Positions 1-32,429 of a stretch of DNA of 32,745 bases are shown here, in pieces. The stretch is from a virus. The notes below the pieces were generated by a model. That model did not search any database and was not told the origin of the DNA. It was given only the letters and a program-made list of their open reading frames with translations. Position 1 is the stretch's first letter; each line of letters starts with the position of its first letter. Location of the stretch: positions 1 to 32,745 of IMG/VR virus record IMGVR_UViG_3300041405_000398; one strand, given 5' to 3'. The translations under genes were made by a program, and so were the position numbers.

Positions 1-1395
1 ATGATGGAAGAAGCAAAGAATTTTGCGGTTGTTTTCAACGGGGAGCTACTTGCTACTCTACCGCCCAATTTATTGAAAGAATTCCTACACAATGAAATAG
101 ACCATTGGAATTGGTTGCGAAAAATTCAAGAAGCGGGACAAGTAGGGGAGGAACTATATAAAAAATTCATCCTTAAGCATATTGAACCAATCATCCATGA
201 CATTGAACAAACATCAACGGTTCATGGTTCTTCTAATATTATCGAAACTACCTATCCCTTTTTTTCAAGCACGAGCAAAGAAGGGAAACTTGTTGAAAAT
301 ACGAGAAAGAAATTTGGAGATATGACTGCAGCACTCCTACTCGTATATCTGTCATCAAGCAGCAAAACGGTAATTTCATCTACCCCCGCACTTCAAGAGA
401 TATTCAAGACTGGCGTTTATTCGTACGAACAAGCCATTGCCTTAAAAATTGCCACTACACACCTGGACTTTGGTATTTTCGGGGAAAAGATAGACACTTC
501 GTTTACAAAATTATTGGAAAAGTCTGAAACCCAAATAAGTGCGTCCATCGATAGAGTTAAAGAAAAAGAAAAAACTCTAGCCGAACGAATGATATCAATT
601 GATTCAGAACACCGAGAATGGACTAGTAAAGCGGAACAAGTACTAGCCCGGAGGATGGACCTATACAAAGACCTTGCAAAAAAAACTCGGAACGAGGCTA
701 AGGACTCGCTAGACGAAGCAAGGGAGTCTTTGAAGAATGCAAAAAAAGATGTCGATTCCGCTTATGCGGCATATCACGCCGAAGTTGATTTAAATGCTTC
801 AGTTGAATACTGGACTGCCAGATGCCGCTCCCACAAGCACTCCAAGCGTATTTGGTTGGGATTAACATTAGCTTTCATGATAATGACATTTGGAGCACTA
901 GTTTCTTATTATTATTATGGAGCAGCATCTGGACTTTCGAGCCATAAAATAATATCTGCACAGGCAACTGCCTCTGAGATAACTACCAACAGTTCTAAAG
1001 GCCCAGCACCAACCACTTCCACCGATCCAAAAGCAGACGTCACTACTCAAGCGCCTAACCTAGTTAATATAATCGGTAAAAGCCCCTCTGAAATTTCTCT
1101 GATAGTCACAGACCTTGCAGGCGCAGCGTTGTTAATCGCACTGTTTGGAGTCTTAATTAGAATTGGATTGCGACAGTTCAACACATACTCTCACTTTGAG
1201 CTTGAATCGGCTGAGCGGATAACCTTTATCAAGACATACATAGCATTATTATCCGAAGGCAAATTGAAAGGTGACGATGACAGGAAGGTGATTCTAGAAA
1301 GCCTCTTTAGAAGCTCTCAGCCTGGAACATCATCTGAAATACCTTTCTCCAGCCCTATAGAGCTTGTCTTAAAGACGCTTGATAGCAAAAAATAA
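1..1395 (+). CDS. Cargo (moron) protein with coiled coil and two membrane segments, function unknown
   Basis: I do not recognise this 464-residue protein with certainty. It has a mostly helical N-terminal half, a charged coiled-coil-like stretch at about residues 160-265 (rich in K, E, D, R and A), a first membrane segment at about 284-306, a Ser/Thr/Pro-rich linker at 310-360, a second membrane segment at about 366-389 and a short cytoplasmic-type tail. This suggests an inner-membrane protein with large soluble ends. The gene is clearly more AT-rich than all its neighbours, stands on the opposite strand to the late operon, and lies beyond the last fibre gene, a classic place for lysogenic-conversion or phage-exclusion genes. 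The window starts exactly at an ATG, so no ribosome binding site can be seen and the true start could be upstream. A defence or superinfection-exclusion role is inference from position and composition only. Confidence 0.8.
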   Translation: MMEEAKNFAVVFNGELLATLPPNLLKEFLHNEIDHWNWLRKIQEAGQVGEELYKKFILKHIEPIIHDIEQTSTVHGSSNIIETTYPFFSSTSKEGKLVENTRKKFGDMTAALLLVYLSSSSKTVISSTPALQEIFKTGVYSYEQAIALKIATTHLDFGIFGEKIDTSFTKLLEKSETQISASIDRVKEKEKTLAERMISIDSEHREWTSKAEQVLARRMDLYKDLAKKTRNEAKDSLDEARESLKNAKKDVDSAYAAYHAEVDLNASVEYWTARCRSHKHSKRIWLGLTLAFMIMTFGALVSYYYYGAASGLSSHKIISAQATASEITTNSSKGPAPTTSTDPKADVTTQAPNLVNIIGKSPSEISLIVTDLAGAALLIALFGVLIRIGLRQFNTYSHFELESAERITFIKTYIALLSEGKLKGDDDRKVILESLFRSSQPGTSSEIPFSSPIELVLKTLDSKK

Positions 1396-1455: not shown

Positions 1456-2196
1456 TCAGTATGTAAGAAGCATTTTCTCCAACTCCGTGATCTCGGAGGC
1501 AGTGAGGGCTCTATTAAAAGCCAGCATCCCTCCATGCAGGCTGTAACGCCCAGTCTGAGCTCCTGCATCGTTCACCAGGCCGTATTGCAGGCTTGGGTGA
1601 ACCGCCGTGGTGGCGAACGCCGCATTGGGAATGTTCAACTCGTAGACGCCATTGACGCGGATTTTTACAGTGCCGGTGGCAGCATTCCACACGAACACGA
1701 CAATGGTCTGTGCAGCGGCACTGAGCAGTGGCCCTTGATACAGCGCGGGATTCGAGGTGAAGCCCCCCAATTTGAAGTACAGCCTTCCGCTGTCGTCATT
1801 TCGAATCCACCACGGATTCGTGCCGCCATATGACGACATGCCCAACAAATCGTCGACGATGGCGCAAACCGTCAGCCCACCCTCCCAGCTCGGTACCGTC
1901 GCGCGCCAGATAGAGTTTGGGCTACCGATAACCACGGCAGGGCAGCCTGCTGGCAGAGGGCTAATACTGATCCCGACTTGAGCGCTGTTACGCAGCTGCA
2001 GGTCAATGTCAGGTCGACGGTCCCATAGAGCCTGAGGCTGTGCTCCAGGAACACGACCATGGAGATCGTCGATGTACGGCCAGAAGATATTCCCGTCGAT
2101 GTTGGCTACCGCGATCTCTTCTGGTGAAACATCCATGGGTATATTGGCGATAACGCCAGGAACAGCGCCGATAAAGGTGGCGGAGCGTTGGACCAT
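1456..2196 (-). CDS. LamG/concanavalin-like phage tail protein
   Basis: Predicted 246-residue protein and last gene of the late operon. The C-terminal half has the pattern of a laminin-G/concanavalin-like beta-sandwich: a 'TGTVKIRVNG' hairpin, a 'RYSLHGGMLAFNRALT' segment and a closing 'ASEITELEKMLL' helix are typical of phage and bacterial LamG-3-type carbohydrate-binding modules. It probably decorates or extends the receptor-binding fibre encoded just upstream. The reading frame is open to 2283, but the ATG at 2196 is chosen because AAGGA stands about seven bases before it. This start overlaps the end of the fibre gene upstream (stop at 2207) not at all, leaving a gap of ten bases. The exact ligand cannot be told from sequence. 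Confidence 0.78.
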   Translation of the reverse strand: MVQRSATFIGAVPGVIANIPMDVSPEEIAVANIDGNIFWPYIDDLHGRVPGAQPQALWDRRPDIDLQLRNSAQVGISISPLPAGCPAVVIGSPNSIWRATVPSWEGGLTVCAIVDDLLGMSSYGGTNPWWIRNDDSGRLYFKLGGFTSNPALYQGPLLSAAAQTIVVFVWNAATGTVKIRVNGVYELNIPNAAFATTAVHPSLQYGLVNDAGAQTGRYSLHGGMLAFNRALTASEITELEKMLLTY

Positions 2197-2206
2197 GATG
2201 AAATCC

Positions 2207-4099
2207 TTAGTTGAGCGCGAATACCTTCGCGGCGCTGAAGTTGTACAGTGGATCGTTATCAAAGCTGGAGCGCTCGCGTTCATCCGAGTCGCGGACTGCG
2301 CCGCCTAACACTTCGCCGATCGCATATTTCAGTTTTGTCCCAGTAGCTGGAGCGGCAGAGAGTGTGATGGTCAGGCTGGTTTGATCGGAGTTTACGGTGA
2401 CAGTCATGATCGACACGTTGGTGTCGCTCACATAGAAACCGTATTTCCCGCTCGGGTTCTTCCCTCTCACGGTGTCGAGCACGATCGGGCCAATCGGGCC
2501 CGGCGTCGCGGCAGTGCCATCCACGGTGTTGTTGTAAGCGACAGTGATTTGACTGCCCTGCAGCACCGCTGAGGTTGGACGCAGGCAGTCCCAACGCTGC
2601 CCCTTCAGCCAGAAGCGCTTAGCTCGGGCCTTCAGCTCGCCGACTTTCACGTAGCCTTCGGCCATCAGGTGGGAGCCGTCGTAGTACGCAAACTGATATT
2701 TGGGTGCATAAAGGCAAAAGTCCTGCTCTGTTTCGTGCAGGTGAACCATGGCCATGGCCACGCCTTCGGCGCCGGTCATGCCGGTATTAGTCTGCGAGAA
2801 CATGCAGCGGATCGAACGGCGTGATTGCCCGGTCAATGCCACGGCATCGTCGCGGAAGTTGCTCAGCCACTCCCTCAGATATCCCTCATAGGTCGCCTGC
2901 GGTGTATTCACCTCCGACTCACCGTGCATGACGTCCAGATCGCCGACCCGGTAGGTCCAGCCCCGCTGTTCGCAGAGGAACTGCGCGGCCGTCATGGCGT
3001 TGAACATGGCCTGCCAGACCGTCGTCCCCTTCTTGATCTGTGAGTAGGTCGCGTTGCCACGCCCAGAAACAATGGGCAGCAGCCGTACGTTGTCGTCCCC
3101 GTCGGCTTTGAGTTTCGAGTACAGCCGGTTGGTGTATGAGGACCAGATGGTTTCACCACACACTTCACCATCAAAGCGCTCATGGATCGGCTCGAGGCCC
3201 GTGAATTCTTCAACGGTGGGTGGCGTGTAATTACCGGCGTTCACGAACACGCGAACCCCAATGGGAGAAAGCATCAAGCAACGGTCACCGTGCACTGAGG
3301 GTGCGGCGCTGAAGACTTGACCGGATAGCGGCCCCCCAGGCACGGTGTTAATCGTGCCGCGACTGGCAATAGAGAGCGATTGCCCGGTACCAACATCCCC
3401 CAAGACCAACATCGGAGACGCTGAAGCCTTGATCAACGGCGCCTCGCTGGTCTCATAAACCCCCGCCCTGGTGGTGTACCACTTGTACATGCCGCCGACG
3501 ACCAGGCCACTGACGATGTCGAGAGGGCCGCGGGGGATCCGCTTATCCTGCGCACCATTGATCGCGCTGATCAGATTCGGATTCACGATGTTCTGCAGCA
3601 CCCGGTTGCTGGCCGCCAGTGCGTCAGCACTGGGGTATTGTTTGATGTACAAGGCAGCGCCACTGCTGTTCCGATACAAAGTCAGGTAGGCCGATTGCTC
3701 CACGCTCGGCACACTGAAATATTGGTTATTGGCGGTCGCCACCAGGCCGGCAGCGGTATCCGCGTACAGCCCGGCCGAGAGTTGCGCCGCGTCCCGAGCG
3801 ACCTCGGCCCTAGCGGCTGCAGCGTTCGCCGCGTCGACGGTTTCACTCACATCGTTGCATTGCACAATGATGCGGTAACTGCGATCGCCCTTGGTCACCA
3901 GTAGGTCATACAGTCCGTTCGGTGCCGCGAACTTGATGGCGCCCTGAGCGTCTGCGGTAAACGGGTTGGGCAGGGGCGTCCCATTAGCACGGCGCAGACT
4001 TGCAACCAGGGTCTCGGTGCCGCGCTGATAGAGGTAGCAGGTCGCGCCTGCCATTGCGTTGCCGGCGGCGTCCTGGGCGAAGAAGTTCTTCAGTTCCAC
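2207..4099 (-). CDS. Tail fibre/spike protein with SGNH-hydrolase (esterase) domain
   Basis: A 630-residue protein in three parts. Residues 1-85 look like a particle-binding N-terminal domain ('FFAQDAAGNAMAGATCYLYQ'). Residues 90-125 form an Ala-rich helical stretch. Residues about 228-500 look like an SGNH/GDSL esterase: a GQS block at 239-241 (candidate nucleophile Ser241), a G-E-S block at 394-395 with H392 before it, and a D474-G-S-H477 pair matching the DxxH catalytic motif. The rest (510-630) is beta-rich. Such enzymes usually deacetylate surface polysaccharide (O-antigen or capsule) during adsorption. The start is a GTG at 4099, preceded by AAGGA at good spacing; the ATG two bases away is out of frame. 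The esterase assignment rests on motif order, so substrate and activity are inference. Confidence 0.78.
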   Translation of the reverse strand: MELKNFFAQDAAGNAMAGATCYLYQRGTETLVASLRRANGTPLPNPFTADAQGAIKFAAPNGLYDLLVTKGDRSYRIIVQCNDVSETVDAANAAAARAEVARDAAQLSAGLYADTAAGLVATANNQYFSVPSVEQSAYLTLYRNSSGAALYIKQYPSADALAASNRVLQNIVNPNLISAINGAQDKRIPRGPLDIVSGLVVGGMYKWYTTRAGVYETSEAPLIKASASPMLVLGDVGTGQSLSIASRGTINTVPGGPLSGQVFSAAPSVHGDRCLMLSPIGVRVFVNAGNYTPPTVEEFTGLEPIHERFDGEVCGETIWSSYTNRLYSKLKADGDDNVRLLPIVSGRGNATYSQIKKGTTVWQAMFNAMTAAQFLCEQRGWTYRVGDLDVMHGESEVNTPQATYEGYLREWLSNFRDDAVALTGQSRRSIRCMFSQTNTGMTGAEGVAMAMVHLHETEQDFCLYAPKYQFAYYDGSHLMAEGYVKVGELKARAKRFWLKGQRWDCLRPTSAVLQGSQITVAYNNTVDGTAATPGPIGPIVLDTVRGKNPSGKYGFYVSDTNVSIMTVTVNSDQTSLTITLSAAPATGTKLKYAIGEVLGGAVRDSDERERSSFDNDPLYNFSAAKVFALN

Positions 4100-4114: not shown

Positions 4115-5068
4115 TTATGCGGTGATTGGCTTCAGCAGCGCAGCGAGCAAAGCGGCGGTACCGGCCTTTTGAGTAAATTCGGTCGCGTCAGCAGGACTCG
4201 GGGTTGGTCCCGGTACATGCGTATGCGCGGCCAATTGCGTGTTCATTTCCTGCACCAGGTCGAGCAGGTCGCAGAGAACCTGCAGAACATTTACCCCCTC
4301 AGAACCCAGCCAGGTCTTTTGCGCAAGACTGTGGCGAACCCCTTCAATCCGCTCGTGCATCTCACCGCCCACCGTCAGGTTGAGCTTCTGACCCACCACC
4401 TGGTTGAGGTCACGCCCGGTGGCCAGATGCAGATCGTCAACAGCGGCCAGGCTTGCGCTCCCGCCTGATAACAACTTGAGCGCGCCAAGCGCCTCGATCT
4501 TCTTGATGCCCCCGACTGTCTCGCTCGAATGGTCGTCCACCTCCACCGTGCTGCTCTGGTGGCGTTCGGCATTGGTCAGGCTTTCAACTTCGCGATCGAT
4601 CGACTTGTCACGAATCCGGCCTTCGGTCTGGCGCAGCCAGTTGCCGTCGGCGTCGACCCGCTGCTGAGTCGTCTCGCTGTGTTGCCACACCTGATCGCCC
4701 TTCGGTACCTTCGGCAGGCTCAGCCCGTGCGGCAGGATTGCCTGAATAAACGGCTTGCTCGGTAGGCCATAGGCGAAACACACGACAACTCGGGTGCCTT
4801 CTTCGGGGAAAGCAAAAAAGCCCATCTCGTCGCCGCCCATTGGCATGGGCAGCGGGACGCCGGCCAGCACAGGCAGTCGCGGATCTGGCTCGTCGTCCTC
4901 GCCCAGCAGCTCAAGGTCCACCGCAAAACGCGGACGGAAGTCGTCGCAAATGCCGGCGCCGGCTGGGGCATCGGCCACACCCACGACCCGGGCAAAGCGC
5001 GGCAGGTGATAACCGCCGGTGAGTTCGGGGAATTGCCGCTCTACACTGCGGCGGATTGCGTCTTCCAT
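4115..5068 (-). CDS. V: Baseplate assembly protein V / tail spike
   Basis: A 317-residue protein with the layout of P2 gpV-type membrane-piercing spikes. The N-terminal part contains an OB-fold with 'MGFFAFPEEGTRVVVCFA' followed by 'KPFIQAILPHG', then a repetitive beta-rich region ('VGQKLNLTVGGEMHERIEG') expected to form the trimeric beta-helix, and a C-terminal 'AAHTHVPGP' segment seen in many spike tips. The frame is open to 5251, but the ATG at 5068 begins a family-like N-terminus (MEDAIRRSVERQFPEL). It overlaps the 3' end of the hub gene by 28 bases. Position directly after the hub gene fits the order found in contractile tails. Confidence 0.88.
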   Translation of the reverse strand: MEDAIRRSVERQFPELTGGYHLPRFARVVGVADAPAGAGICDDFRPRFAVDLELLGEDDEPDPRLPVLAGVPLPMPMGGDEMGFFAFPEEGTRVVVCFAYGLPSKPFIQAILPHGLSLPKVPKGDQVWQHSETTQQRVDADGNWLRQTEGRIRDKSIDREVESLTNAERHQSSTVEVDDHSSETVGGIKKIEALGALKLLSGGSASLAAVDDLHLATGRDLNQVVGQKLNLTVGGEMHERIEGVRHSLAQKTWLGSEGVNVLQVLCDLLDLVQEMNTQLAAHTHVPGPTPSPADATEFTQKAGTAALLAALLKPITA

Positions 5069-5751
5069 CGGATCGCCATTTGGTTGCCGGTGAGCGTCAC
5101 CTGGGTGATCCGCTCGCCTTGGTTGATGGATGCACCTGGTCGCAACCCCGGAAGGGCCGCGATCATCGCGCTCTGATTGTTTTGGTAGTCGTTGAACAGC
5201 TCGACCGGCAGCTGCAGCGGCGATCGGGTACCGAAAAAGCTGTCGGTCCAACTGCCCACAAACACTTCGCCGTCGCCCTGCTGCTGCCAGATGAAGTCGC
5301 TGATCCCGAACACACGGGGCAAGCTGTCCATGGCCTGATAGCCGGCGGCCAGGTTGTAAAAAAACGGGGCTTTGACTTTGGCATAAGCCTCGTCTGGTAC
5401 TCGGAAGCTCAGCCCGGTTTTCTGGCTGATCTCGGCCAGTACCGTGCTCAGATCTGCATGGCGCAGGTTGAGCGGTAATGAGTTGGCCAGGATCGCGGCG
5501 AGCTCGCGACAGAAAAGCACCTGCTCAATCGCATTGGACGACGTGCAGCGCTCGACGTAGCCAATGAAGTGGCGCTGCAGTGGGTTGTCGTTGTAGCCGA
5601 TATCGAGAGTTACCAACCCCTTTACCGGTGCCGCCGCCCGGATGGTAAGCGTGGCCCTGCCGGGGGTTCTCAGCTCGAGGCGAACGTCGTCGCTGACCAA
5701 GGGGTACACAGCGCCGCCAATGGTCAACACCTTGTGCAGTTTCATGCTCAT
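5041..5751 (-). CDS. Baseplate hub protein (gpD / Mu gp44-like)
   Basis: A 236-residue protein, probably the hub that connects the tail tube to the spike. It starts with a beta-rich domain, followed by 'DIGYNDNPLQRHFIGYVERC', a typical hub-domain strand pair, and a 'DLSTVLAEISQKTGL' helix as in late-control-D/gp44-type proteins. It is shorter than P2 gpD (about 390 residues), so it belongs to a compact hub type. The start at 5751 overlaps the stop of the upstream gene as ATGA, and a second ATG lies two codons downstream (MSM). It is followed immediately by the spike gene. The fold assignment is by pattern and gene order, without a profile search. Confidence 0.72.
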   Translation of the reverse strand: MSMKLHKVLTIGGAVYPLVSDDVRLELRTPGRATLTIRAAAPVKGLVTLDIGYNDNPLQRHFIGYVERCTSSNAIEQVLFCRELAAILANSLPLNLRHADLSTVLAEISQKTGLSFRVPDEAYAKVKAPFFYNLAAGYQAMDSLPRVFGISDFIWQQQGDGEVFVGSWTDSFFGTRSPLQLPVELFNDYQNNQSAMIAALPGLRPGASINQGERITQVTLTGNQMAIRWKTQSAAV

Positions 5752-10207: not shown

Positions 10208-11381
10208 TCAAAACCACCTCAACCCCAGACAGGCGCGGGATGGTAAGTTCTGAAATGATGTCGACGTTGTCGAACTTCAGCGAGTCGATGCCCGGGAATT
10301 GCTGGTGCAGCTCCTCGCCCAATCGACTGAAGGAAAACCGGGACTGGGGATGGGTCAGCGTCGGCGCCGGCTTGAAGTCGCTTTCCGTGCTTTCGCGGAA
10401 TGCGGCGCGGATGTAAAGCTCGATGTCGGCCTTCAAGGCTGGATGACGTTCGGCACCCACTTCGGCCTTGGGCCAGATCGTCACGCTTACGGCGTGCAAC
10501 GTGGCGGGCATCTCCAGCACCAACAGGTCATCCCCGTGGCCATGGTTGCCCTGGTCGCGGATGTAGCTGTTGATTTCAGCCAGGAAGGTGTCCGCCGGCG
10601 AGTCGGCTTCGAACAGTACTAAGGCATTGGCACTGCCAGGGCCCCGAGGTGCGTTGTGCTCGAAGTAGACGCCATCCGGCTGCACGCCCGGGAAGGCGGC
10701 GATCATTGCACGGTATACCGCGTCGGTGTGCCACTGGTTGACTGCCGAGAATTGGTTGCGCACACGCAGGCGCAGTTCGTCGTCGGGCTCGGTGTCGGCG
10801 CCGGGCTGGCTCAGCCAGCCGTCAGCGTTCACCACCTGGACCACCCCGGGAACGGGTTCGGGAAGAATCGAAAAGTAACCTGGTGCGAGATTGAATCCGC
10901 TGCCGGCTTGTTTCGCCCTGGCCAACACGCGGATCTGCGATTCCCCATCGGCAAAGCTGGCCGCTGCCACCGTCACCAGTTCGTACACGTTGCCGTTGAT
11001 CGCGATCGATTGCACACGGGTACCGGCCGGGATTTCCAGAAGGCCGGCCAGCGCACTGCGGGTGAACAGCAGCAACCCCTCGGCCTTGGTCGCAGGCTTT
11101 CGGGTGACGTTAACCGCCCAGGCCAGCATGTCCAGCCAGGCCTTCTCAGCCGTTTTCACGAAGAAGTTCGGCAAAACGGTGCTGGCGATAAAGTCGATCA
11201 ACCACATCACGGGCTTGGTCACCAAAGCGGTGATCACCCGCCAGAACGGAGACCAGGCGCTGGTGTTGCTCAACTTGCTGCCCTGAGCGACCACTTCCAG
11301 CTCCCAGGCTGCACGCAGCTTGGCCTCGGTGGTCGGAATGCCGGCGTCACTCAATGCCTGTTTGAAATCTACGTCACTCAC
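10200..11381 (-). CDS. J: Baseplate protein J
   Basis: A 393-residue baseplate wedge protein of the gpJ family. It shows the family's N-terminal helical region, a central 'LLEIPAGTRVQSIAINGNVYELV' module, and the 'GADTEPDDELRLRVRNQFSAVNQWHTDAVYRAMIAAFPGV' block that marks Baseplate_J proteins. The start is a GTG at 11381, overlapping the stop of the upstream W-like gene as GTGA. It is longer than P2 gpJ (about 302) and more like Mu gp47-type proteins. It acts at the rim of the baseplate with gpI. Confidence 0.9.
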   Translation of the reverse strand: MSDVDFKQALSDAGIPTTEAKLRAAWELEVVAQGSKLSNTSAWSPFWRVITALVTKPVMWLIDFIASTVLPNFFVKTAEKAWLDMLAWAVNVTRKPATKAEGLLLFTRSALAGLLEIPAGTRVQSIAINGNVYELVTVAAASFADGESQIRVLARAKQAGSGFNLAPGYFSILPEPVPGVVQVVNADGWLSQPGADTEPDDELRLRVRNQFSAVNQWHTDAVYRAMIAAFPGVQPDGVYFEHNAPRGPGSANALVLFEADSPADTFLAEINSYIRDQGNHGHGDDLLVLEMPATLHAVSVTIWPKAEVGAERHPALKADIELYIRAAFRESTESDFKPAPTLTHPQSRFSFSRLGEELHQQFPGIDSLKFDNVDIISELTIPRLSGVEVVLNA

Positions 11382-11695
11382 AACACTACCTCGACAGATC
11401 CGAAATCAACGGTTTGGGCCGTAACCAGGTACTTGCCCTTCCCTTCCTCAAGGATCCGCACCGTGCCCGGTACCAGGCGCACGTCGGTCTCGACCAGCAG
11501 TTCTAATTGCTGAATGCAGTCGGCTTGCCGGAAGCGGTCACGCTCGGCCACCAACGTCACCAGGAGGCCGCTTTCGCGGATCATGTGACCGATGTCCTGG
11601 GCAATGCTGGCCCGATCGTCCACCAGCAGCGGCTGGCTCGAGGGGTCCAGGGTCAGGTCGTTATTGGTGATCAGCAGATCGATGTAGAGGCTCAT
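11378..11695 (-). CDS. Baseplate W-like protein (DUF2590-like)
   Basis: A 105-residue protein whose place (after tape measure, before J) and pattern ('DLTLDPSSQPLLVDDRASIAQDIGHMIRESGLL' followed by 'RFRQADCIQQLELLVETD') match small baseplate wedge proteins related to P2 gpW / T4 gp25, in the form annotated as DUF2590 in kappa-like phages. ATG 11695 overlaps the tape measure stop as ATGA, and its stop overlaps the GTG of gene J. The family name is from memory and would need a profile search. Confidence 0.72.
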   Translation of the reverse strand: MSLYIDLLITNNDLTLDPSSQPLLVDDRASIAQDIGHMIRESGLLVTLVAERDRFRQADCIQQLELLVETDVRLVPGTVRILEEGKGKYLVTAQTVDFGSVEVVL

Positions 11696-13674
11696 CCGCC
11701 TACCCCCATCGCGACCATGTTTTCGAGCTCCAACGGGGTCATTGGCTTGGCGGTATGGATGTTCACGTTCTCGACGTGCGTGCCCTTGTTCTGGTTGCTG
11801 GTGTTCTGAATGCGGGTCAGCAGCCCACCAGGCGGCACAGCAGAAGGCCGCGCCGGGGAAAGGCTAGGGATTGCCGCATTGATAGTCTGTTTCGCTTTCT
11901 GTGCGGCCTGGGCGGTATTGGCTGCATTCATAGCCGCATCGACACCCGGCACTTCGGGCATCCCACCGAAGCGCGCCTCGATGTTCACGCCCGGGATGCT
12001 GTTGATCATCTCGATCAGGCTGTTGATGGCCTTGTAGAAGACGCCGACGATGCTGTCCCAGGCGCCCTTGGCCATGGCTGACCAGCCGCCCATGGAGCTG
12101 AACCAGTCGGACAGCGTCTTGAACTGATCGCTGACCCATTTGAAGGCGTCACTGTTGAGCAGCGCGGCGGTCCATTCGTCCCAGTAGTAGACGGCAGCGA
12201 TCACAGCCGCGACCAATGCGACCACACCCGCCACGATCAACACCACCGGGTTGGCCAGCAGCGCCGCGTTGACCAGCCAGATCGCGCCCTGCCACATCAG
12301 CATGACGCCACGGACGATGGTCAACCCCGCGCTCAGCAGGTAGATGACAGCGATGTAGGCCAAGATCGCCAGCTTCTGCAGCACGAAGCTGGCAGCGGTG
12401 CGCAAGTTCAATAACTGCACCACCTTCCAGACCGTCATCACTCCCAACCAGGTCATGCGGCTGATACCGATCACCAGGGTGAGCGCCGACATGGCGGCGA
12501 TAATCCCGAACACGGTCAGCGTGGTGATGCCAATGATTCGGGCGATGTTCGGGAACAACAGCGTCCAGCGACTCAGGGCCGCCCCGATCGCAACCAGTTT
12601 GTCCATCAGAGGGGCCAGGATCGGGATCAGCACTTGACCAAAGGTGATGCGCAGCGCTTCGACCGCCGCCCCGAATTGCTGCCAGGGGTCGACCATGGAC
12701 TTGGCCATGTTCTCGGCGTTCTCAAGACCCCGGACTTTGCCCAGCCGGTCCATGCCGTTGCGCAGGCGCTCGGTGTCCTTGGTCAGCGCGGTGATTACCC
12801 GAGCGCCCTCCCCGCCAAAGGCCTCGATCAGCTTGGCGCCGGTCGACGCGCTGTTCAGGTCGCCAAACTTGCCTTCCAGCTTGCCAAGGATGTCGAGCAT
12901 CGGCAGTAATTTGCCGTTTTGGTCGACGAATTTGAGGCCGAGTTTTTCCGACGCGCCGCCGATGTTCTCGAAGAATGATTTGTAGATGCCGCCGGCGTCC
13001 CCGCCTTCCATGGTGCTGCTAAGCGAGCCGATAACCGCGAACTGCTCGGCCAGGTCCACCCCGAACGTCGTAGCGATCGAGCCGACTTCCTTGAAGGCGT
13101 CCTTGAGCTGGGCGCCGTCGGTGCGAAACAGCTGCACCGCCAGTGCTGTCTGGCCACCAAGTTTCTCAACCCATTCGCCTTTGCCCATCGCATCGGCTTG
13201 GCCTTTGAACAGGTTGTACATGGTGCCCACGTAAGCGGTCATGGTGTCCGCGTCGGACTTGGTCGCCTTGGCCAGCAGGTTGCTGGTGTTGGTGAACGTG
13301 GCCAGCTGGTCGCCGGTCAGGCCTTTGATCGCGCCTTCAATCACGTACGCAGACGCCACAAAATCCCGGGCGTTCTCACCGTAGGCCACCGAAAACTCCA
13401 GCGACTTGCGATTCAGCGCGTTCAACGCGTCCTCGGCCACGCCCAGCGATTTAACCTCGCCCAGGGCGCGGTTCATTTCCAAGGCAGGTGCCAACGATTG
13501 CGTGATTGCTACGCCGGCGCCCACCATGCCGCCCAGCCCCAGGCCCATCGTCTTGATGTTCTTTTCGCTCTTCTCGGCAAGGTCGGAGAACCCCATTTTC
13601 ACTTTGCCCAGGGGCGCGGTGACCTTGTCAGTCAGGCTCAAGATGAAGGCCAGGCGGGCGGCGCGGTCAGCCAT
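11692..13674 (-). CDS. Tail tape measure protein
   Basis: A 660-residue tape measure protein, which sets tail length and is ejected with the DNA. The N-terminal 340 residues carry the TP901-type core ('RNGMDRLGKVRGLENAENMAKSM', 'AFGGEGARVITAL'). From about 355 to 500 there are several hydrophobic segments, including 'NPVVLIVAGVVALVAAVIAAVYYWDEW', a common tape-measure motif. The C-terminus is Ala/Pro-rich. At 660 residues it predicts a fairly short tail by the usual rule of about 1.5 angstrom per residue. ATG 13674 lies six bases after the stop of the chaperone fusion product. Confidence 0.92.
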   Translation of the reverse strand: MADRAARLAFILSLTDKVTAPLGKVKMGFSDLAEKSEKNIKTMGLGLGGMVGAGVAITQSLAPALEMNRALGEVKSLGVAEDALNALNRKSLEFSVAYGENARDFVASAYVIEGAIKGLTGDQLATFTNTSNLLAKATKSDADTMTAYVGTMYNLFKGQADAMGKGEWVEKLGGQTALAVQLFRTDGAQLKDAFKEVGSIATTFGVDLAEQFAVIGSLSSTMEGGDAGGIYKSFFENIGGASEKLGLKFVDQNGKLLPMLDILGKLEGKFGDLNSASTGAKLIEAFGGEGARVITALTKDTERLRNGMDRLGKVRGLENAENMAKSMVDPWQQFGAAVEALRITFGQVLIPILAPLMDKLVAIGAALSRWTLLFPNIARIIGITTLTVFGIIAAMSALTLVIGISRMTWLGVMTVWKVVQLLNLRTAASFVLQKLAILAYIAVIYLLSAGLTIVRGVMLMWQGAIWLVNAALLANPVVLIVAGVVALVAAVIAAVYYWDEWTAALLNSDAFKWVSDQFKTLSDWFSSMGGWSAMAKGAWDSIVGVFYKAINSLIEMINSIPGVNIEARFGGMPEVPGVDAAMNAANTAQAAQKAKQTINAAIPSLSPARPSAVPPGGLLTRIQNTSNQNKGTHVENVNIHTAKPMTPLELENMVAMGVGG

Positions 13675-13680
13675 GTGCGG

Positions 13681-14132
13681 TTATCCGTTCAATGCGTAAG
13701 CGATGCCGTTAGCAACGGCCATTTCCATGCGTCTCCAGTGCTCGTCCTCCAGCCACTTGGCGGTACCCATCACCTCAGGTGTGGGCTCCGCGCCAGGTAG
13801 CCAGCGACTGGACAGGGCCATCAGTTGGCCCAATCCGTCTTCACTTAGGCGCTCAGCGTGCTCGAGGGCTTTTTTACGATCACTTCGATGTCCGGCGCGT
13901 ATTCCTCGAGCAGCGCGCCAGAGATCTGCATCGTCATCACCGGGTTGAGCAGTACTTTGCGCAGCTCGTCCCGCTCAGCGTGCAGCCCGGTGTTGATCAG
14001 CAGGTTGTGCGACGGCGACACCTTGTTGTTGGCCGTCATGGCGTTGAAGTACTTGGTCACGTCCTGGGGCGTCAGGGAGAAGGTGAATTCTTTGTCGCCA
14101 ACTTCCAGGGTGATTTCGCGTTTCTCGGTCAT
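13681..14132 (-). CDS. Tail assembly chaperone, -1 frameshift fusion product
   Basis: The short chaperone frame (start 14132) contains A AAA AAG at 13875-13869. A -1 slip there continues into an open frame that ends at 13681, giving 88 + 62 = 150 residues. The extension has its own protein character ('LMALSSRWLPGAEPTPEVM', then 'WLEDEHWRRMEMAVANGIAY') and has no start with a ribosome binding site. It ends just before the tape measure gene. This is the classic G/GT (lambda) or E/E+E' (P2) arrangement, in which a minor fusion protein recruits tail tube subunits to the tape measure. The extension is not found by simple gene calling because it lacks a start. Confidence 0.82.
13845..14132 (-). CDS. 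Tail assembly chaperone (short, unshifted form)
   Basis: A 95-residue protein, the major product of the chaperone gene. The sequence (MTEKREITLEVGDKEFTFSL, then 'DVTKYFNAMTANNKVSPSHNLL') fits the phage tail assembly chaperone families of P2-like and kappa-like phages. It wraps or stabilises the tape measure before tube polymerisation. GGAAC upstream of ATG 14132 is a fair ribosome binding site. The last seven residues follow the slippery site, so they are absent from the fusion form. Confidence 0.85.
   Translation of the reverse strand: MTEKREITLEVGDKEFTFSLTPQDVTKYFNAMTANNKVSPSHNLLINTGLHAERDELRKVLLNPVMTMQISGALLEEYAPDIEVIVKKPSSTLSA
13869..13875 (-). other. -1 ribosomal frameshift slippery site A AAA AAG
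   Basis: The heptamer A AAA AAG is exactly in the X XXY YYZ register of the chaperone frame (GTA AAA AAG). It is the same heptamer as in E. coli dnaX. I see no strong downstream hairpin by eye, although weak pairing is possible. The open -1 frame with a real protein beyond it is the main support. Confidence 0.85.
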
Positions 14133-14163
14133 CTTGTTGTTCCATTTGATTGAAGGGTGACGG

Positions 14164-14631
14164 TCAGCGCAGGCAGATCCGGCGCACGTGGTCCTGCAGG
14201 CCCAGGATCATTTGCCGGCTGAGGGCGAGTTGATCTCTGAGGGTGAAATAATCCGATCGAGCGTCTGCTGCGAGTTCGGCGGGGCCTGCATCAGCCACGC
14301 CGCCGGCGCCGGTCTGGTGGGACTTGGGACTGCTGCAGGTGGCATGGACGAGCAGCCGCTGACTGCCATTGCCAACAGCGCGGCGCAGGACATCGTTTTG
14401 ATTGCGCTCATTGGTGAGCTCCTGAGTGCGTTGAAGATCGATCGCTTCGCTCGCGGCCAACATCTCGCCGCTGATTCGCGCCGCTTCGCGCAGGCCGGTG
14501 ACTTCGCTTTGGGCGAGATCGCGTTCACTGCGAGCGGTGTCGCGGTCCTGTACGACCTGGATGAACCAGAACAATGGAATCAGCCCGGTCAGAGCCACCA
14601 CGAGAAATAGTCGGAACGGGGTTATGGTCAT
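14164..14631 (-). CDS. Inner-membrane spanin (Rz-like, DUF2514-type)
   Basis: A 155-residue i-spanin. The N-terminus has one membrane segment at about residues 6-27, followed by a periplasmic helical domain ('DRDTARSERDLAQSEVTGLREAARI') that should form a coiled coil. The C-terminal half is again helical. In Gram-negative lysis the i-spanin spans the periplasm with the o-spanin and fuses the inner and outer membranes. ATG 14631 overlaps the endolysin stop as ATGA, with GGAG nine bases upstream; the ATG at 14640 would be too close to it. The open frame runs far upstream (to 14895), but inside the endolysin gene. The o-spanin is embedded in a second frame. Confidence 0.82.
   Translation of the reverse strand: MTITPFRLFLVVALTGLIPLFWFIQVVQDRDTARSERDLAQSEVTGLREAARISGEMLAASEAIDLQRTQELTNERNQNDVLRRAVGNGSQRLLVHATCSSPKSHQTGAGGVADAGPAELAADARSDYFTLRDQLALSRQMILGLQDHVRRICLR
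14208..14411 (-). CDS. Outer-membrane lipoprotein spanin (Rz1-like), embedded in Rz
   Basis: A 67-residue lipoprotein encoded entirely within the Rz-like gene in another frame. The signal peptide MSAIKTMSCAALLAMAVSGC ends in a lipobox with the acylated Cys at residue 20 (V-S-G-C). The mature part is short and Pro-rich ('MPPAAVPSPTRPAPAA'), as in Rz1 proteins. AGGAG stands seven bases before ATG 14411, a better ribosome binding site than many in this operon. It would be anchored in the outer membrane and contact the i-spanin. The ordinary gene callers tend to miss such genes. Confidence 0.85.
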   Translation of the reverse strand: MSAIKTMSCAALLAMAVSGCSSMPPAAVPSPTRPAPAAWLMQAPPNSQQTLDRIISPSEINSPSAGK

Positions 14632-15155
14632 TTCGCGCATAGCTCCGCTTCTGCCAGACGGCGCGCATGCAGGCCGCGCACGAACAGCTTTTGGCCCTTG
14701 GAATCGGTGATGAACGCCCAGACCGGTGTTTTGCCGTCGGGGCCCCAGGCCAATGCGTTGCAGCCGTCCTGGATCCGTCCGGCATTGATCAGCCCCACGG
14801 CCCGACTGGCGCACGTGCTCGGCACACCGAAGTTGTGGCCATGGCTGCTCAAGGCATCGAAGGTGTTCTGCCCGATCGCCTGATTCGTCAGGCAATCGGC
14901 GAGAGCCAATTGGCCTTTCTCGATCACCAGCTGCTCCACCTGGTCACAGCGAGCGTCTGACCAGTAATCCCCGATCACGACTGGATAAGGGCTGGTATGA
15001 CGGGTGATGCCTTTGCACACCGTGGGCAGGCCACGGGCCAAAGCGTCGGGATACACAACGTTCTGGCCCTGGCCTTCCCACTTGCCCAGAAAACCGAGCA
15101 AAGAAGCGCTGGCCAGCGCAATGGCGCCGGCGGCGATCTTGATGCGCAGGTTCAT
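14628..15155 (-). CDS. Endolysin, GH24 lysozyme with SAR-type N-terminus
   Basis: A 175-residue phage lysozyme that cuts the glycan strands of peptidoglycan. Residues about 4-24 are a weakly hydrophobic Ala/Ser/Gly-rich segment, as in signal-arrest-release (SAR) endolysins. The GH24 catalytic site is recognisable: Glu27 in 'KWEGQ', Asp37 and Thr45 in 'PTVCKGITR'. The spacing between Glu and Thr is slightly longer than in T4 or P21 lysozymes. Cys residues at 47, 70 and further down may regulate activation, as in P1 Lyz or P21. ATG 15155 overlaps the holin frame's natural stop as ATGA. A SAR endolysin usually works with a pinholin, which agrees with the small gene upstream. Confidence 0.88.
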   Translation of the reverse strand: MNLRIKIAAGAIALASASLLGFLGKWEGQGQNVVYPDALARGLPTVCKGITRHTSPYPVVIGDYWSDARCDQVEQLVIEKGQLALADCLTNQAIGQNTFDALSSHGHNFGVPSTCASRAVGLINAGRIQDGCNALAWGPDGKTPVWAFITDSKGQKLFVRGLHARRLAEAELCAK

Positions 15156-31304: not shown

Positions 31305-32429
31305 TTACTTCAACGTCTTGGCGCCCAGCTTCACGGGCGCCTGTACGATTGTCTCGAACCACTTCCACTTCACATACACATCACCTCGACCGCGCAGATG
31401 AGTGTAACGCCGCATTGAGTTCCAATCCCGATGCCCCGAGACGCTGGCCACCCTAGGAATGTCCCAGTCCATTTCGAAAAGCCGGCTCACGCCATCGTGA
31501 CGCAGATCATGAAAGTGCAGATCCTCGATCCCCAATAGCCGACAAGCCCTAGTCCACGAAGTGGATACAGACTCTGCGCTGTACGGGAAAATCTCGGGTA
31601 ACACCTTGGGCATGGTTTGGAGAATGGCCAATGCTTCTGGTGGTAGATGGCACCAGACATCATTGCCGATTTTCTGGCCTGGGTTTTTCATGTCTCGTAC
31701 CAACACTCGACAACCGGGCTCGTCCAGATCAGACCATTGGATCCGGGTAATCTCTTCCTGGCGCCGAGTTGAAAACAATGCAAACCCAGTCATCTTGAGC
31801 ATGTTGATCGATGTTGGACGGCGGGCCTGAATACCTTGAAAGTGCTTAAGCAGCTCGTCGAGCTCACCCAATGTCGGGCGTCGGTCGCGCTCGCGGCTTT
31901 TCATGTTGTATCCCAGCTTCTTCAACACCCGTCGGGCATCCGTCATTGCGTGTGGATCGACCTCATAGCCCCAAGCAGGTCGAGCGATCGAAAGGACCGC
32001 GCCAAGATGTGCCAGATCATTACCAGCCGTTTGAGGCTGTACATTCCCGCCCTCCTTGCCCATTCGCCATAGCGCGTACTCCACCAACTGCTGACTGTTG
32101 ATATCCTGGTCATTCAATTTGCTTAGATACGATTCACCGATCGCTTTGAGCGTGGCGAGCTTGGTCTTTCCCAAAGGCCGGACCTTCTCCATCTCAAGCA
32201 GATACCGGTCAATCATCTCCTTGACCGTTGTGCCTTTGCGATTTGCCCGCTCGATCGCGCCTGGCTGATCCAATTCTGTTTCGCGTTTCCGAGCCCATGC
32301 CATTGCAGCCTGTTTCCGGGCGAAGGTCTGGCACTCTTGGTAAACTATTGCCCCTTTGTTTTTAAGGCGAATCTGGACGGTGTAACTGACCGATCCGTCG
32401 GCCTTTTTTCTTGCTCTAATAGTTGCCAT
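31305..32429 (-). CDS. int: Tyrosine integrase of the dusA-targeting type
   Basis: A 374-residue tyrosine recombinase. Arm-binding domain at about residues 1-60, core-binding domain at 65-170, catalytic domain from 185. The catalytic residues are visible: Arg223 (in 'STRRQEEI'), Lys248, His307 and Arg310 ('HDLRH'), His333 ('SGHRD') and Tyr342 ('RRYTHL'). It integrates at the start of dusA, 100 bases away, and reads away from it. A consensus -35 TTGACA lies at 32486-32481 but its -10 is not clear. The family of dusA-associated integrases is known from many Gammaproteobacteria and other Proteobacteria. Confidence 0.94.
   Translation of the reverse strand: MATIRARKKADGSVSYTVQIRLKNKGAIVYQECQTFARKQAAMAWARKRETELDQPGAIERANRKGTTVKEMIDRYLLEMEKVRPLGKTKLATLKAIGESYLSKLNDQDINSQQLVEYALWRMGKEGGNVQPQTAGNDLAHLGAVLSIARPAWGYEVDPHAMTDARRVLKKLGYNMKSRERDRRPTLGELDELLKHFQGIQARRPTSINMLKMTGFALFSTRRQEEITRIQWSDLDEPGCRVLVRDMKNPGQKIGNDVWCHLPPEALAILQTMPKVLPEIFPYSAESVSTSWTRACRLLGIEDLHFHDLRHDGVSRLFEMDWDIPRVASVSGHRDWNSMRRYTHLRGRGDVYVKWKWFETIVQAPVKLGAKTLK

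Follow-up and report, generated by a model that had tools for sequence, protein, structure and literature searches.

An AbiZ-related membrane protein with a distinct N-terminal domain, probably a phage-exclusion factor, carried as cargo by P2-like Pseudomonas prophages

Introduction

AbiZ is a classical abortive infection (Abi) protein of lactococci, with a striking phenotype and a mechanism that is still unsettled. When infected by phage phi31, Lactococcus carrying AbiZ is reported to lyse about 15 min early and to yield 100-fold fewer phage (PMC7182436, PMC6356687, PMC10884400), and the protein is proposed to act together with the holin (PMC6356687, PMC10884400); the phenotype has been reported from this Gram-positive host only. 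Tab and Abi-alpha are described as prophage genes that abort infection, Tab at the level of virion assembly and Abi-alpha (DUF4393) by premature lysis (PMC6356687, PMC10884400). In P2-like coliphages, defence hotspots are established (Rousset et al. 2022, PMC9122126), and Peduoviridae of Pseudomonas syringae are reported to carry defences as well (PMC13182921); in the sections of these two papers that were consulted, both concern temperate P2-like phages in which anti-phage systems occupy defined variable loci, and neither names the gene family treated here. No mention of DUF6161 was found in the literature searched.

The window analysed here, i.e. the whole stretch of DNA, is the IMG/VR virus record IMGVR_UViG_3300041405_000398 (32,745 bases), a P2-like Pseudomonas prophage. 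Its closest annotated relative is Pseudomonas phage UFJF_PfPro (Peduoviridae, P2-like), the structural region of which is collinear at 76% identity. A gene at one end of the window appears, on the basis of sequence comparison, to join a membrane module of the AbiZ type to a new N-terminal domain and to be carried as cargo by Pseudomonas prophages. Like AbiZ of Lactococcus (PADLOC PDLC02354; WP_032398699.1), its product has, in this order, a coiled coil, a juxtamembrane segment with YW/FW, two membrane helices and a conserved tail at the C-terminus, and carriage on mobile elements near other Abi genes is common to both. The family differs from AbiZ in its N-terminal domain, for which no similarity could be detected, in an extended Ser/Thr/Pro linker separating the helices, in its Gram-negative host and in its prophage location. 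With Tab and Abi-alpha it would share the abortion of infection by a prophage gene, and with Abi-alpha also early lysis; these are different families, set apart by their descriptions only, and the window protein gave no match to DUF4393 in a Pfam scan. Compared to the hotspots of other P2-like phages, the Pseudomonas slot differs in lying after the baseplate and tail fibre genes, at the attachment end.

Results and Discussion

A cargo gene at the trimmed end of a P2-like prophage

The gene encodes a protein of 464 aa without internal stops, while the longest stop-free run in mononucleotide shuffles of the same 1395 bases had a median of 85 codons and a maximum of 213 (2000 trials). Its start codon is plausible, since the homologues described below begin at roughly the same residue. 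The initial annotation had pointed to a composition unlike the rest of the record, an opposite strand and a private terminator, and all three features are confirmed. The GC content is about 40%, compared to 58-62% in the tail genes, and GC3 is 0.37 compared to 0.59-0.83 in nine other genes of the record. The neighbouring tail genes (1456-2283 and 2207-4099) are encoded antisense to the cargo gene and run towards it. A hairpin (1407-1420) followed by eight T residues (1421-1428) lies between the convergent genes and, as it has a run of A on its other side, this terminator may serve both of them. Several traits of a prophage cargo (moron) gene are thus found, namely deviant composition, an own terminator, antisense orientation, and absence or replacement in close relatives. 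The features of the locus are collected in Table 1.

The gene had also been placed between the tail fibre module and a missing attachment end. The tail-module side of this placement holds, while the "end" itself looks like a trimming boundary, as the record opens with the first letter of the start codon (ATG) of the cargo gene and a second IMG/VR record (L132) is likewise cut exactly at the start codon of its own cargo homologue. The ends of the record thus look like gene-boundary trims by which the attachment side was lost, with the promoter and the attachment site lying outside the record. A search for tRNA attachment sites beside the cargo gene found none. On the phage side of the slot, the first 80-230 residues of the tail fibre-like protein are common to 15 viral contigs and the remainder differs, a pattern to be expected if the receptor-binding part is swapped.

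Table 1. Features of the cargo gene, its product and the neighbouring prophage genes (positions in the window; aa, residues of the 464-aa protein)
Feature	Position	Strand	Evidence
Cargo CDS, 464 aa, predicted two-pass membrane protein of the DUF6161/AbiZ superfamily	1-1395	+	Intact ORF, homologues
N-terminal alpha domain, aa 1-155; poorly conserved, without detectable similarity to the AbiZ N-terminus; candidate sensor	1-465	+	AlphaFold2, alignment, hhalign
Coiled coil in one long helix, followed by the conserved juxtamembrane segment (Y270-W271), aa 163-283	487-849	+	AlphaFold2, alignment, hhalign
TM1, aa 284-306, ending in invariant YY..G	850-918	+	Hydropathy, alignment
Ser/Thr/Pro/Ala linker, aa 307-363, variable (29% gaps in the family), probably periplasmic	919-1089	+	Hydropathy, alignment
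TM2, aa 364-390, G-A-A-L-L	1090-1170	+	Hydropathy, alignment
Conserved cytosolic tail, aa 391-464, LRQFN...AER..F.KTY.ALL.EGKL..D.DR...LESLFR; common with AbiZ/DUF6161	1171-1392	+	Profiles, hhalign
Terminator, hairpin CCCGC-TTCT-GCGGG and T8 on the + strand, A run before	1407-1428	both	
Convergent tail gene, weak Laminin_G_3-like match; phage-side border of the slot	1456-2283	-	
Tail fibre-like protein; N-terminus common to 15 viral contigs	2207-4099	-	
Baseplate (gpV-like OB) protein; slot marker in related prophages	4115-5251	-	
Phage integrase, opposite end of the record	31305-32429	-	

Homologues in prophage slots and genomic islands

Neither pattern scans of viral and genome contigs nor tblastn against phages and plasmids found a relative when the single protein was used as query, and Pseudomonas prophage loci were therefore fetched by means of the neighbouring baseplate gene. 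One of the 79 loci obtained (L043) holds a homologue 31% identical to the window protein, antisense and adjoining the baseplate gene. Profile scans of viral contigs gave ten loci with the cargo gene or a related one, and an HMM search found homologues in six of 398 Pseudomonas genomes, DUF6161 as a whole being present in 11 of these. At least 13 distinct homologues, 25-38% identical, are known from these searches, and the idea of an orphan gene was rejected as relatives were recovered both from the prophage-slot loci and by HMM. The full-length members used besides the window protein are those of L043, L104, L105, L106, L107, L108 (identical to L115), L109, L110, L111, L112, L113, L114 and L132. 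In samples of 369 Gammaproteobacteria and 398 Pseudomonadota genomes, matches outside one Pseudomonas genome (G001) were restricted to the common C-terminal or coil-TM1 parts. Judged by these samples, the complete protein looks largely limited to Pseudomonas.

The homologue occupies the tail-end slot of P2-like prophages in L043, L107, L108/L115, L110, L111 and L132. By eye, L109 and L114 were assigned to other tailed-prophage segments and L112 and L113 to Mu-like phages, the homologue of the latter two lying between head genes. The remaining ones (L104, L105 and L106) are located in genomic islands, and in L106 the gene adjoins one encoding a SIR2_2 and nSTAND_NTPase5 protein, with a Mu/Tn7-like transposase close by. 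The homologue neighbourhoods, which the initial annotation had singled out as a point to check, are accordingly prophage ends, cargo slots and defence islands rather than housekeeping loci.

Two functions other than defence were considered in the light of this distribution. A gene carried by a prophage, and related to one that affects lysis timing (AbiZ), might modulate its own prophage's lysis or growth, or help against satellites. However, it is present in a minority of the related prophages, in varied phage types and in chromosomal islands without a phage, and is an antisense, AT-rich gene with its own terminator, which leaves this the least probable of the readings considered. It is also very improbable that the gene is a host fitness or conversion factor unrelated to phages, for instance in membrane stress or signalling, given the sporadic occurrence in the Pseudomonas genomes and the repeated presence of defence genes as neighbours.

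Some neighbours of the homologues have features of their own. Two low-GC genes of about 420 aa without a Pfam match stand beside the homologue of L104 (6300-9128), whose island is bordered by type II secretion-like genes. A 1293-aa protein, likewise without a Pfam match, is encoded beside the island homologue of L105 (5006-8887) and by eye looks like an NTPase of the STAND type that carries a nuclease-like region at its N-terminus. A canonical DUF6161 gene of a Pseudomonas genome (L138, 922-2154) sits between a Methylase_S gene (type I RM specificity) and a RhuM gene.

Relationship to AbiZ and DUF6161

The window protein matches Pfam DUF6161 (PF19658), chiefly in the C-terminal 60 residues, at 22.8 bits (E 7e-5), below the curated cut-off of 27 bits, and the PADLOC AbiZ model weakly (4.9e-5). 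The seven members of one alignment of the family (A3) all match DUF6161 at E<=0.1 (best 5e-14), and six of them match PADLOC AbiZ (best 3.2e-10). All six homologues of the Pseudomonas genomes exceed the DUF6161 cut-off, some only when two in-frame stretches are summed. A DUF2207_C match of the window protein was set aside, as a single one of the seven A3 members matches that family at E<=0.1. Since the match of the window protein is weak and coiled coils draw false matches, the link to AbiZ was tested separately. Matches to LeoBC, JetC, DrmA, SKA2 and the like look like coiled-coil artefacts, and the AbiZ model also has a match in M. jannaschii.

A protein of the Lactococcus plasmid pUCCL629C (WP_032398699.1; L127, 4404-5702), encoded close to an AbiA gene and named "DUF6161 domain-containing protein" by NCBI, matches the AbiZ model over its full length (2.6e-166) and DUF6161 as well (7.6e-37), which identifies AbiZ as a DUF6161 protein. 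When the window family was aligned with seven AbiZ/DUF6161 proteins by hhalign, the match reached 99.1% (E 8.4e-19). Dissected by part, the cytosolic tail alone gave 8.2e-19 and the coil-TM1 part 3.8e-6, while the two N-domains gave 0.15; reversed and column-shuffled controls were not significant (0.04 or worse). The part held in common is consequently the membrane module with the tail, and the N-terminal domain is a different one. A direct pairwise BLAST with the AbiZ protein reached only E 0.005. That the AbiZ match reflects the coiled coil was rejected, as the signal is carried by the tail, which is not a coil, and survives the reversed and shuffled controls.

Architecture and conservation

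Hydropathy places the two membrane segments at about residues 284-306 and 364-390. The AlphaFold2 model consists of an alpha N-domain, a single long helix (163-305) entering TM1, a disordered loop and a helix at 362-418. A coiled coil, two membrane segments and a Ser/Thr/Pro linker, as read from the sequence before, are therefore recovered, and the linker is also rich in Ala (9 S, 8 T, 4 P and 8 A in the 55 residues 307-361). As the mean pLDDT is 68 and the pTM 0.34 (one model), the model supports the layout only and is uninformative on fold relations; a structure search with it against PDB and BFVD gave no significant matches. Both termini are predicted to be cytosolic.

Pairwise identity among the 13 homologues peaks at 66% in the tail; the two helices reach 40% and 50%, and the juxtamembrane segment 46%. 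The N-domain (21%), the coiled coil (19%) and the linker (20%, heavily gapped) are less conserved. E405, R406, Y413, F436 and R437 are among the invariant residues of the tail. The dN/dS ratios of three close homologue pairs (0.12-0.17) indicate that the gene is under purifying selection. Across 14 loci the only conserved neighbours were phage genes and a pair of small genes in the P2-like prophages, and a toxin-antitoxin or other multi-gene system was dropped for this lack of a conserved partner. The small gene pair (82-99 aa in three loci) is located beyond the cargo gene in L043 (12505-13231), L107 (12809-13353), L110 (3885-4450) and L111 (4826-5370). The conservation pattern and the absence of a partner would fit a single-gene system in which the sensing part evolves fast while the part that works at the membrane stays fixed.

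These data bear on whether the protein acts at phage entry. A membrane protein that is made constitutively and has a periplasmic linker could block DNA injection or the receptor route while the cell survives, and such superinfection exclusion would be in line with the predicted two-pass topology with a periplasmic loop. The slot is also used for surface modification elsewhere, with a glycosyltransferase in UFJF_PfPro and acyltransferases in L010 (identified by eye) and others. However, the linker is the most gapped and among the least conserved parts of the family and is nearly absent in the AbiZ relatives, while conservation is highest on the cytosolic side, in the juxtamembrane and tail segments. 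The poor conservation of the periplasmic part argues against exclusion at entry, which is considered distinctly unlikely.

A probable role in phage exclusion

The AbiZ-related membrane part, together with the occurrence of relatives in phage cargo slots and defence islands, suggests that the cargo gene is probably a phage-exclusion gene, and a defence role of any kind is regarded as highly probable. As a somewhat favoured reading, this would be a lysogenic-conversion (moron) gene of the variable slot between tail module and attachment end, and its single product, of the DUF6161 (AbiZ-type) superfamily, would serve phage exclusion or abortive infection. Since the working part is homologous to that of AbiZ, the likeliest action would be to abort infection from the inner membrane, by lysing the cell early or permeabilising it, and an AbiZ-like lysis or membrane mechanism is given a slight preference. 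The gene would be expressed in the lysogen. The cytosolic N-terminal domain and the long coiled coil would detect an infecting phage, directly or indirectly, whereupon the conserved module (juxtamembrane segment, TM1, TM2 and cytosolic tail) would exert its effect at the inner membrane, most likely as a helper of the invader's holin or by permeabilising the membrane itself, and the infected cell would lyse or die before the progeny mature. As no N-domain in common with AbiZ is detectable, the trigger, and perhaps the outcome, may differ.

An overlapping reading is a suicide effector which answers infection by permeabilising the membrane independently of the holin, with loss of the membrane potential, as in other two-helix abortive-infection effectors. 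This is consistent with a conserved two-helix module fused to a diverging cytosolic domain and coiled coil, and with a single gene devoid of a conserved partner, but the accounts of AbiZ in the sources consulted point to the holin (PMC6356687, PMC10884400), and a Pfam scan of the A3 members recognised no nucleotide-binding or second-messenger domain in the N-domain. A holin-independent effector is considered on balance unlikely. Together with exclusion at entry it is the main rival of abortive infection in the manner of AbiZ.

The earlier proposal of a membrane-linked phage-exclusion effector gains weight from the finding that the module of membrane part and tail is homologous to AbiZ. The gene had also been put forward as an undescribed system; in this respect the module falls within a catalogued Abi family, while neither the N-terminal domain nor the branch in Pseudomonas seems to have been characterised. 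We tentatively propose, as a possibility somewhat short of even, that the two-helix module with its cytosolic "ER..KTYLAL..EGKL...LESLFR" tail is a transferable executor, found from Lactococcus plasmids to Pseudomonas prophages and combined with interchangeable N-terminal sensors, and that the Pseudomonas branch may represent an undescribed prophage-borne class of Gram-negative abortive infection acting on the lysis clock. The placement of AbiZ in DUF6161, together with a prophage-borne branch in Gram-negative bacteria, yields a testable family in which the conserved tail and helices indicate the working part, and Pseudomonas and its phages offer a convenient host for asking whether the holin is the target.

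The tail-end slot as a cargo hotspot

The finding also flags a rich defence slot in Pseudomonas P2-like prophages. Beyond the baseplate gene, at about 10,950-15,000 of loci L019-L097, 66 of 77 related prophage loci hold an AT-rich ORF of at least 150 aa in the same slot, the first one being antisense in 47. The 114 slot cargo ORFs fall into 89 similarity clusters, although some of these ORFs may be host genes. A scan of 108 cargo proteins (the window protein being the 109th) against PADLOC and Pfam gave matches to AbiLi, AriA (PARIS), PtuA (Septu) and HEC-01A, as well as to the AAA_21, GmrSD_N, HEPN, RloB, KAP NTPase, Schlafen and O-acyltransferase families. The tail-end slot of Pseudomonas P2-like prophages is a dense and highly diverse hotspot of defence and other cargo genes, and many of its ORFs may represent uncharacterised systems.
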